This document shows positions 55,893 through 57,935 of a stretch of DNA of 64,000 nucleotides, piece by piece (the stretch's first letter is position 1; each line of letters begins with the position of its first letter). This DNA is from Hymenobacter caeli. Its GTDB lineage: Bacteria > Bacteroidota > Bacteroidia > Cytophagales > Hymenobacteraceae. Location: the NCBI RefSeq assembly GCF_013294115.1, contig NZ_JABSNP010000012.1:62001-126000 (forward strand), given 5' to 3'. The notes beneath the pieces were generated by a model. That model worked only from the letters and a program-made list of their open reading frames with translations, had not been told where the DNA came from and searched no databases. Both the position numbers and the translations under genes were made by a program.

Positions 55893-57935
55893 ATGGAGAA
55901 TTTTGTCGTTTCGGCCCGGAAGTACCGTCCCGCCACCTTCCGCAGCGTGGTGGGGCAGCAGCACGTCACCACCACCCTGCAAAACGCCATCCAGAGCCAG
56001 CACCTGGCCCAGGCGTTCCTGTTTTGCGGCCCGCGCGGCGTGGGCAAAACCACCTGCGCCCGCATCCTGGCCAAAACCATCAACTGCACCAACCTCACGC
56101 CCGAAACGGAGGCCTGCGGGGTGTGCGCCTCGTGCGTGGCGTTCCAGGAAAACGCTTCTTTCAACGTACACGAGCTGGACGCCGCCTCCAACAACTCGGT
56201 AGAGGACATCCGCTCGCTGGTGGAGCAGGTGCGCTACCCGCCGCAGGCCGGCAGCCGCTACAAAATCTACATCATCGACGAGGTGCACATGCTGTCCAAT
56301 CAGGCCTTTAACGCCTTTTTGAAGACGCTGGAGGAGCCGCCGTCCTACGCCATCTTCATCCTGGCCACCACCGAGCGCCACAAAATTATCCCCACGATTT
56401 TGTCGCGCTGCCAGATTTTCGACTTCAGCCGCATCCGGGTGGACGACATGCGCCAGCACCTGCGCTACGTGGCCACCCAGGAGGGCATTGCCGCCGAGGA
56501 CGACGCCCTGCACCTGCTGGCCCAAAAGGCCGACGGGGGCCTGCGCGACGCGCTGTCGATGTTCGACCAGATGGTGACGTTTGCCGGCAACCACCTGACC
56601 TACAAGGACGTGGTGCAGAACTTGCACGTGCTGGACTACGACTATTACTTCCGGCTGGTGGACGCGCTGCTGGGCGAGGACCTGTCGGCCGCGCTGCTCT
56701 TGCTAGACGAGGTGGTACAGCAGGGCTTCGACCTGCACAACTTCGTGGTGGGCACCGCCGAGCACCTGCGCGGCCTGCTCGTGTGCAAAGACGCCGTGAC
56801 GGTGCAGCTGCTGGAAGTGTCGGACGGCATCCGCAAGCAGTACGTGGCCCAGGCCCAGGCCGCGCCCCTGGCCTTCGTGCTCTCGGCCCTGAACCTGGTG
56901 AGCCAGTGCGACCGGGACTTCAAGCAAGCCAAAAACCAGCGCCTGCACGTGGAGCTGGCGCTCATGAAGCTGGCCTATCTGAACGGGGCCGTGCAGTTTG
57001 TGCGCGACGTGAACGGCCCGGAAGCCGCTAAAAAAAAAACTAGCGGCCTAGCCGAGGGCCCCGCGGCCGAGGCCCCGGCGCTGCCGGTGGCCCCGCATGC
57101 AACCGCCCCAGTACCCGCGGCCCCGCCGTCATTAGCCCCAACCCAGCCAGAACCCATTGCTCCAGCCTCGCGGGCAGAGGCAGAGTACCAGGCACCAGAC
57201 ACCAGGCACCAAGCACCAAGCACCAAAAGCCAGGCACCCATAACCGCGCCCGCCCCGGCCGACGGCCCCGAGCCGCTGCCCGTGGAAAACGGCGTGGACG
57301 AGCTGCACGACACGCCCAGCATCGAGGCCGATTTGGCGGTGGCCGAGACCGGGCGGCACCAGCTGCGCGACACGCTGCCGCACGTAGAAATCGGGGCCCC
57401 GAGCATGGAAGGCCTGGAGCCGGAGCCCCGGCCGGCCCCGCCGTCGCTGCTGAACCTGGCGGCCGGCGGGGGCAGCAGGCTGCCCAGCCTCCAGGATTTT
57501 GGCACGCGCCCGACGGGCCCGGCGGCCCAGGCCGTGGCCGAGCCGCTGCCTGCGTCCGGCCCGGTGGCCCCCGTGAACGAGGCCCTGCTGCAACGCGTGT
57601 GGCGCGAAATGGCCGAGGAGCGCCGCGCCCAGGACCGCATGAGCGAGTACACGCTCCTGAACCGGCCCGTGGCCGCGGGCCCCGACCACCGCATCGAGCT
57701 GACGGTGGACAACCCTGTGCAGGAGGACCAGTTCAACGACATCCGCACCGAATTTTTGGCCGAGCTGCGCCGCCGCACCGGCCACCCGCGCCTGAACGTG
57801 GTGCCCGTGGTGGCGCAGGCCGCCCCCACGGCCCGCAAGCTGTATACCTCCACCGACAAGTTTGAGTACCTGGCCGAGCGGTTTCCGGCCCTGCGCGAGG
57901 CCAAGCAGCGGCTGGGGTTGGAGGCTGATTTTTAG
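55893..57935 (+). CDS. dnaX: DNA polymerase III subunits tau and gamma
   Basis: The clamp-loader ATPase, 680 residues in the full-length (tau) form. Walker A FCGPRGVGKTTCARI, zinc cysteines in CGVCASC with the earlier INC, Walker B YIIDEVHMLSNQAFNAFLKT, and sensor FILATTERHKIIPTILSRCQ are clear. The ATPase domains end near residue 375, followed by a ten-adenine run at 57030-57039 (codons 380-383) with stop codons just downstream in both other frames. A Pro/Ala-rich linker follows, then the tau-specific C-terminal domain. Slippage at the run would give a gamma-like product of about 383 residues. Confidence 0.96.
   Translation: MENFVVSARKYRPATFRSVVGQQHVTTTLQNAIQSQHLAQAFLFCGPRGVGKTTCARILAKTINCTNLTPETEACGVCASCVAFQENASFNVHELDAASNNSVEDIRSLVEQVRYPPQAGSRYKIYIIDEVHMLSNQAFNAFLKTLEEPPSYAIFILATTERHKIIPTILSRCQIFDFSRIRVDDMRQHLRYVATQEGIAAEDDALHLLAQKADGGLRDALSMFDQMVTFAGNHLTYKDVVQNLHVLDYDYYFRLVDALLGEDLSAALLLLDEVVQQGFDLHNFVVGTAEHLRGLLVCKDAVTVQLLEVSDGIRKQYVAQAQAAPLAFVLSALNLVSQCDRDFKQAKNQRLHVELALMKLAYLNGAVQFVRDVNGPEAAKKKTSGLAEGPAAEAPALPVAPHATAPVPAAPPSLAPTQPEPIAPASRAEAEYQAPDTRHQAPSTKSQAPITAPAPADGPEPLPVENGVDELHDTPSIEADLAVAETGRHQLRDTLPHVEIGAPSMEGLEPEPRPAPPSLLNLAAGGGSRLPSLQDFGTRPTGPAAQAVAEPLPASGPVAPVNEALLQRVWREMAEERRAQDRMSEYTLLNRPVAAGPDHRIELTVDNPVQEDQFNDIRTEFLAELRRRTGHPRLNVVPVVAQAAPTARKLYTSTDKFEYLAERFPALREAKQRLGLEADF
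57030..57039 (+). other. A10 slippage site in dnaX
   Basis: Ten consecutive adenines within codons 380-383. The -1 frame reads AAC then TAG at 57041-57043; the +1 frame reads CTA GCG GCC then TAG at 57049-57051. Both terminate within four codons. A GC-rich potential hairpin follows. Confidence 0.75.
57187..57238 (+). repeat. 7-bp tandem repeat in the dnaX linker
   Basis: Degenerate copies of ACCAGGC/ACCAAGC in tandem. Because 7 is not a multiple of 3, three units are needed to return to frame, and the protein shows a seven-residue period of the form HQAPSTK. Confidence 0.75.

Follow-up and report, generated by a model that had tools for sequence, protein, structure and literature searches.

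Transcriptional slippage in Thermus thermophilus dnaX, at a run of nine adenines (A9), yields the tau and gamma subunits of DNA polymerase III from one gene (PMC1088944, PMC5009743), and in E. coli the same gene undergoes -1 ribosomal frameshifting at A_AAA_AAG, with an upstream Shine-Dalgarno (SD) element and a stem-loop (PMC3711429, PMC5009743). A GeneTack study described 17 dnaX genes laid out as two open reading frames (ORFs), nine of them with ten adenines (A10), and proposed transcriptional slippage (PMC3711429). A second Lys tRNA may favour slippage by the polymerase, and the need for a separate gamma subunit has long been disputed, even for E. coli (PMC5009743); moreover, a slip that truncates its product is hard to judge by comparison, since it opens no new coding sequence to compare (PMC1088944). 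As a kind of event, dnaX slippage is already known. We describe a candidate site of this kind in a stretch of 64,000 nucleotides from Hymenobacter caeli (Bacteroidota; Bacteroidia; Cytophagales; Hymenobacteraceae; contig NZ_JABSNP010000012.1, positions 62,001 to 126,000, forward strand), hereafter the window, whose dnaX gene carries an A10 run. We put at about 0.74 the probability that this run is a programmed transcriptional slippage site, yielding tau and a short gamma from one gene.

The A10 run in dnaX

The gene product matches the NCBIfam models NF011531 (784.5 bits, cut-off 685) and TIGR02397 (432.4 bits, cut-off 250). The gene and the parts of its site, in window coordinates, are as follows.

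55893..57935, plus strand: dnaX, DNA polymerase III subunit gamma/tau, an ORF with tau (680 aa) in the genomic frame
56604..56984, plus strand: domain III (Pfam PF12169, residues 238-364), the last domain common to tau and the predicted gamma
57030..57039, plus strand: A10 run, the predicted slippage site (codons 380-383), seen in the sequence and kept in relatives
57041..57043, plus strand: TAG stop met after 11 A or a -1 ribosomal shift, predicted gamma of 383 aa
57049..57051, plus strand: TAG stop met after 9 or 12 A, or a +1 shift, predicted gamma of 385 or 386 aa
57040..57932, plus strand: tau-only part, a Pro/Ala-rich linker and the tau C-terminal region, from the ORF and from C-terminal homology in relatives

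In frame 0 the site reads GCT AAA AAA AAA ACT AGC and is open through residue 680. With 11 A, or after a -1 shift, it reads AAA AAA AAA AAC TAG and gives a product of 383 aa; with 9 A, or after a +1 shift, AAA AAA AAA CTA GCG GCC TAG gives 385 aa, and 12 A gives 386. A prior sequence-only reading of the window had placed the run at codons 380-383, with a stop at the second codon of the -1 frame and the fourth of the +1 frame, directly after the conserved domains, and it was right on each point: both TAGs lie where it put them, the first after AAC, and domain III ends at residue 364, so that a run beginning at codon 380 stands just behind the shared clamp-loader domains.

The mechanism that we propose is simple. 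RNA polymerase would slip while copying the T10 template, producing dnaX mRNAs with 9, 10, 11, 12 or more A. Those with 10 or 13 A would be translated into tau, of 680 or 681 aa, and the others would terminate 2 to 4 codons past the run, giving a gamma of about 383-386 aa, comprising the clamp-loader part without the tau-only C-terminal region. The sequences themselves show the run, its two stops, the conservation of both as nucleotides, and the exchange between layouts; that slippage occurs here, that it occurs at transcription and not at the ribosome, and that the resulting gamma is made and used are the inferred parts of this scheme.

Whether such a homopolymer is unusual, as had been claimed for it, depends on the scale. 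Within the window it is not, since dinucleotide shuffles gave at least two A9 matches in 15 of 100 cases, and the window alone therefore proves little on rarity. Across the whole genome (4,978,110 bases, 45 contigs) the claim stands: of 19 matches to A9/T9, two are the overlapping pair that the dnaX run supplies, and A10/T10 occurs once only, as the dnaX run itself. A single A10/T10 match per genome was found in 28 of 120 Hymenobacter genomes, and 225 dnaX genes with a run of at least eight A hold, all told, just 12 runs of nine or more A or T elsewhere in the gene.

A perfect 7-base inverted repeat flanks the run (GCCGCTA at 57024-57030, TAGCGGC at 57041-57047); read by eye in the window and in the relatives' sequences, it is absent from the listed relatives and was treated as chance. 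Within the linker, at 57187-57238, lies a tandem repeat with a 7/14-base unit (ACCAGGC; 5.6 copies of the 7-mer at 57187-57225). No tRNA genes were found in the 64-kb window.

Conservation of the run across Bacteroidia

The run was followed outward from the genus. Among 120 Hymenobacter genomes dnaX was read in 118 (L001-L118), G095 and G099 being set aside for weak matches only (E about 1e-7). A search of 148 genomes of the order supplied 84 loci outside the genus, picked to cover genera, and a phylum search of 198 genomes supplied 60 more, 34 from the class (hereafter the further class) and 26 from other classes. The class sample of 236 loci so obtained leans heavily to Hymenobacter and its order.

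In the genus, A10 is found in 106 genes, A11 in eight, A9 in three and A8 in one, so that a run of at least nine is present in 117 of 118; absence or interruption of the run in close relatives, which the sequence-only reading had named as telling against it, was not encountered. Beyond the genus, at least A9 occurs in 74 of 84 genes of the order and 32 of 34 of the further class, that is, in 223 of 236 across the class with the genus included (A11 in 19, A10 in 191, A9 in 13, A8 in two, A7 in four and no run of seven or more in seven). At least one gene with A9 or longer was present in 24 of 28 families and 90 of 100 genera. In the other classes such runs were seen in six of 26 loci (L288-L293).

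Named records give a similar picture. The three best named matches (Hymenobacter sp. IS2118, H. polaris and an uncultured Hymenobacter) all have A10 with tau in frame. The best 80 named loci include 62 with at least A9, among them records labelled Pedobacter, Mucilaginibacter, Dyadobacter, Chitinophaga, Chryseobacterium and Muricauda, one with A7 and 17 with no run, 14 of these Bacteroidales. In a class-wide search with a Bacteroides-type DnaX, the best 30 matches comprised 22 with at least A9 and eight without A8. In the sequences sampled, then, the A run is the rule in the class, though part of the Bacteroidales clearly departs from it.

What is conserved is the nucleotide run and not the residues that it encodes. 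It is found in all three codon phases across the class, and codon phase, flanking sequence and the frame of tau vary while the run stays, which argues that nucleotides are kept. In the 110 tau-in-frame genes of the genus, Lys codons outside the run are AAA in 929 cases and AAG in 1570, yet the run stays A-only. The exact 17-mer GCT-A10-CTAG is present in 55 of 120 Hymenobacter genomes. Homology to the tau C-terminal region, in frame 0 or another frame, follows the run in all 118 genus loci and in 81 of 84 of the order.

Some genus sequences show irregularities of their own. In 55 of 118, the match of DnaX to the window's protein is broken, with a separate segment starting near residue 41-71; the three such cases worked out (L111 in G114, L112 in G098 and L081 in G118) carry some 33-34 extra residues near residue 67, in the region of residues 60-72. 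In L081 and L118 the dnaX frame ends about 145-165 codons behind domain III, with the C-terminal region in another frame, and L118 also breaks near residue 117-125, by assembly error or in reality. In L094, the A8 gene, the frame changes once more beyond the run, which makes it a doubtful case.

Closure of the alternative frames and exchange of layouts

Counts of stops and layouts were taken over loci with at least A8 (225 of 236). Both frames other than that of tau are closed within five codons of the run in 112 of 118 genes of the genus, 52 of 75 of the order and 19 of 32 of the further class, against 2.4%, 11.0% and 10.9%, respectively, at control positions in the same linkers; the flanking stops first remarked in the window are thus kept in its close relatives. 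Among genes that carry tau in the genomic frame, the -1 frame is closed within three codons in 110 of 110 (genus), 25 of 33 (order) and 22 of 22 (further class), and the +1 frame within six codons in 105 of 110, 22 of 33 and 18 of 22, for which codon shuffling, a null that preserves local composition, predicts 23.6, 8.9 and 5.7. In the genus the +1 stop is enriched even within three codons (99 of 110); in the order and further class its signal shows at six. Split genes, in which tau is reached only by a shift, have their third frame closed within six codons in 8 of 8, 36 of 42 and 8 of 10 cases (expected 2.1, 22.5 and 4.8). Third-frame stops are thus in excess, and they would serve no purpose if ribosomes simply shifted by -1.

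The frame in which tau itself lies is far from fixed. The genomic frame carries tau in 110 of 118 genes of the genus, 33 of 75 of the order and 22 of 32 of the further class. The remainder place tau in the -1 frame (3, 40 and 9 genes) or the +1 frame (5, 2 and 1). These assignments take the longest open frame as that of tau, with which C-terminal homology disagrees for three genus loci (L081, L118 and L094); in the order, homology puts this region of tau outside the genomic frame at 40 of 84 loci. Both layouts are held within 12 of 28 families and within four genera. When the layouts are mapped by parsimony onto a FastTree phylogeny of the shared domain (192 labelled rows), 34 changes are required, or 29 if the genus rows are dropped; 50 label shuffles gave a mean of 60. 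This tree is approximate, and sequencing errors may account for some of the changes. Under transcriptional slippage the mRNA pool would hold all three frames, and the genomic frame would accordingly matter little. Because layouts flip between relatives, they also offer a way round the difficulty of judging truncating slips by comparison.

Relatives with a short run or none

The family comprises six genera and 204 genomes; apart from Hymenobacter and its sister genus g2, 30 of the 34 genomes of the four other genera were searched. A10 with tau in frame characterizes most Hymenobacter and all loci read of g177 (7), g179 (13) and g180 (8). The sister genus g2 (L144, L381-L409), which by its family and number of species may be Pontibacter, is different: 29 of 30 loci have A_AAA_AAA in the zero frame followed by GCTAAGG, with the -1 stop TAA, and the remaining locus (L395) has A6 with tau in another frame. 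The motif A7GCTAAGG was found in 47 of 50 g2 genomes.

Five bases behind this heptamer, and within about 50 nt of the A7, the segments GGUAG, GGCACC, CUACC and GGUGCC follow in the order of an H-type pseudoknot, with stems GGUAG/CUACC and GGCACC/GGUGCC. A search for interleaved stems, with limits set after seeing g2, finds one in 30 of 30 g2 genes where codon shuffles predict 1.9, g2 being one lineage. All 330 cells (11 pairs in 30 sequences) hold standard pairs, a figure that falls to 22-54% when the pairing is slid by 1-3 columns. Third codon positions hardly vary in the stems and do so in the loops (p 0.0004; 8 stem against 8 non-stem positions from column 28, omitting four invariant ones in or beside the heptamer). 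No compensatory change was found in the stems, only wobble variants at two pairs in three sequences, and the case for the pseudoknot rests therefore on constraint and not on covariation. The A7 with its pseudoknot is probably a -1 ribosomal frameshift signal, to judge from these patterns.

In g178 (two genomes; L470, L471) the layout is reversed. A_AAA_AAG stands in the genomic frame, with gamma in that frame and tau in the -1 frame, and a GCCGG...CCGGC stem was read by eye behind the heptamer; the minimum free energy (MFE) of the following 60 nt (-17.1 and -18.0) is matched or surpassed at many A10 sites within the family. In the family tree g178 and g2 form two clades that branch from the same unresolved fork, which leaves several numbers and directions of mechanism swaps compatible with it. 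At the gamma/tau border of L159, from an incomplete genome of another family, stands A_AAA_AAG with a 14-pair hairpin containing a one-base bulge (-24.7 kcal/mol), and L213 has the same heptamer with a -1 stop and weak folding.

Across the class, seven of the 13 loci without A9 or longer have an A-only heptamer with a -1 stop within eight codons, and the other six, one of them cut by a contig end, have no such heptamer. In the 18 named loci with A7 or no run, this combination occurs only in L349; of the 17 without it, L313 has GGGAAAA only and the remaining 16 have no heptamer. Loss of the run from many Bacteroidales genes, mostly with no -1 heptamer in its place, implies that gamma may not be needed everywhere.

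A mini-hairpin GGGC-N3/4-GCCC stands 18-30 nt behind domain III in twelve Bacteroidales-type dnaX genes without the A run (L339, L342, L350, L364, L366, L371, L375, L380, L492, L493, L498, L499), that is, in 8 of the 18 named loci without a long run and 4 of the 8 without A8, with varying loop and amino acids. The linkers of three Bacteroidetes dnaX genes (L347, L363 and L370) share, directly behind domain III, similar stretches with CATAGATTGC, possibly an inserted repeat.

Polymerase, ribosome or neither

The principal alternative is -1 programmed ribosomal frameshifting, in which tRNA-Lys would slip on A_AAA_AAA and meet the TAG one codon on, as in E. coli dnaX; we consider it unlikely, and several observations that weigh against transcriptional slippage speak for it. 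A -1 stop is near at hand in every tau-in-frame gene of the genus, and the -1 bias of split genes (40 against 2 in the order, 9 against 1 in the further class) would also be expected from a ribosomal -1 shift, as it would if slippage mostly added a base. Two other genera of the family, g2 and g178, resemble true -1 sites. The window's 60 nt behind the run fold with -32.1 kcal/mol, enough in principle to stall ribosomes. The sequence-only reading had pointed to a GC-rich, foldable sequence at this place, which is correct as to absolute stability, but the fold is no better than those of shuffles of the same sequence (z -0.43; 63 of 200 as good). Downstream folding is slightly stronger than control in the genus (p 0.013) and near control in the order (p 0.16) and further class (p 0.59). 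Upstream, SD-like matches of at least five bases are enriched in the order (15 of 74 against 6.9% in controls) and not in the genus (5 of 117 against 7.9%) or further class (1 of 32 against 7.4%), and nearly every gene of the genus has a 4-base match (111 of 117 against 29%); the window's own upstream sequence was judged by eye only. Other points tell against slippage more generally: the +1 stop within three codons is found in only 10 of 33 genes of the order (p 0.16) and 6 of 22 of the further class (p 0.39), the eight out-of-frame genes of the genus may be sequencing errors, related genomes are not independent, and the run has been lost from many Bacteroidales genes, mostly without any -1 heptamer or recognised substitute. 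Against -1 frameshifting, however, stand the stops kept in a frame for which it has no need, and the retention of nine or more A where A7 would suffice. A_AAA_AAG is absent from the zero frame of the window's site, where only A_AAA_AAA is possible. E. coli dnaX relies on a Shine-Dalgarno element, and Bacteroidia ribosomes fail to recognise such sequences (PMC9976891), which weakens the case for a site of the E. coli type. The 60-nt MFE was rejected as a separator of A10 from short-run sites, its ranges overlapping within the family (-8.4 to -30.2 at A10 sites of g177, g179 and g180; -14.2 to -28.5 in g2), and the pseudoknot count was relied on instead. With interleaved stems of 5 and 6 pairs, and stem and loop limits set after seeing g2, H-type pseudoknots at sites of at least A9 are at chance level (8 of 117, 3 of 74 and 1 of 32 in genus, order and further class; 6.1, 1.0 and 1.1 expected from codon shuffles), folding shows no clear excess in the order and further class, and no pseudoknot of the tested form was found at the window's own site.

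Polymerase slippage joined by some ribosomal slipping on the same A run would explain the -1 bias of split genes as well as the two-sided stops. It is more complex than the data need, and present evidence does not separate the two contributions; as an account of the window we think it improbable, while allowing that a ribosomal share could exist in view of the SD-like matches, the lean of split genes and the stable downstream sequence. We see very little room for a phase-variable contingency tract, in which replication slippage would toggle tau between cells: run length does put tau out of frame in 8 of 118 genus genes, but it is exactly ten in 106 of the 118, and dnaX is essential in studied bacteria. 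The idea was rejected because run length barely varies among close relatives. Least credible of all is the view that the run plays no part in expression and is either a poly-lysine motif of the protein or an accident. In its favour, the encoded KKK is basic and falls at the edge of a domain, and A9 does arise by chance in shuffles of the window; yet the run persists across families in which its phase and its residues are not the same, AAG is the commoner Lys codon in these genes, and two-frame stops are far above control. Conservation, phase change and codon choice led to the rejection of motif and chance alike. The joint conservation of run and stops is, in our judgement, best explained by a slippage site that would make a short gamma, as the sequence-only reading had supposed.

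Implications and comparison with known systems

A broader proposition, which we hold to be a little better than an even bet, is that dnaX is frame-agnostic across much of Bacteroidia, by virtue of efficient slippage at A9-A11, with layouts left to drift and with ribosomal -1 re-encoding in two genera of the family. If so, one family would display a natural exchange of transcriptional for translational recoding at one position of one gene, and in g178 the re-encoding, with A_AAA_AAG and a stem, would come with a reversed layout. The A10 genera, the A7-pseudoknot genus and the reversed A_AAA_AAG genus of this one family would allow both mechanisms to be compared within one gene. The homopolymer kept together with two-sided stops, or a frameshift signal in some short-run lineages, constitutes comparative evidence that gamma matters there, with those Bacteroidales that lack the run or a recognised substitute as the contrast case. 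By extension, split dnaX genes in these taxa may be at risk of being called pseudogenes. In the open-access literature searched, we found no report of dnaX frameshifting in Hymenobacter or of DNA polymerase III transcriptional slippage in Flavobacterium, and PMC3711429 was the only paper found on dnaX slippage or pseudoknot frameshifting in Bacteroidetes; a class-wide dnaX pattern that flips frames and swaps mechanisms was not found in the literature so searched.

Among the described systems, the E. coli gene shares with the window a -1 stop close by and a gamma that would end a codon or two behind an A-rich site, and differs in its A_AAA_AAG, which the window does not have, and in the SD element and stimulating stem-loop, which are not established there. 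The g2 site occupies the same border of the same gene, with a close -1 stop TAA, but its short A7 and pseudoknot look ribosomal. The two-ORF genes of the GeneTack study resemble the window in A10, and their split layout recurs here in 42 of 75 genes of the order and 10 of 32 of the further class; the window's dnaX, in contrast, has no gamma stop in the genomic frame and carries tau there, with no recoding needed for tau. Closest is T. thermophilus dnaX, which likewise has a long sense-strand A run, tau in the genomic frame and stops near in both others. The window differs from it in having A10 for A9 and in belonging to another phylum, and its slippage and products are predicted ones; a site of the Thermus type would be expected to yield mRNAs that vary in their number of A, and gamma and tau in similar amounts. 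The likeness to Thermus that the sequence-only reading had perceived nonetheless extends to the homopolymer of at least nine A, to the stops in two frames and to the position behind the clamp-loader domains.

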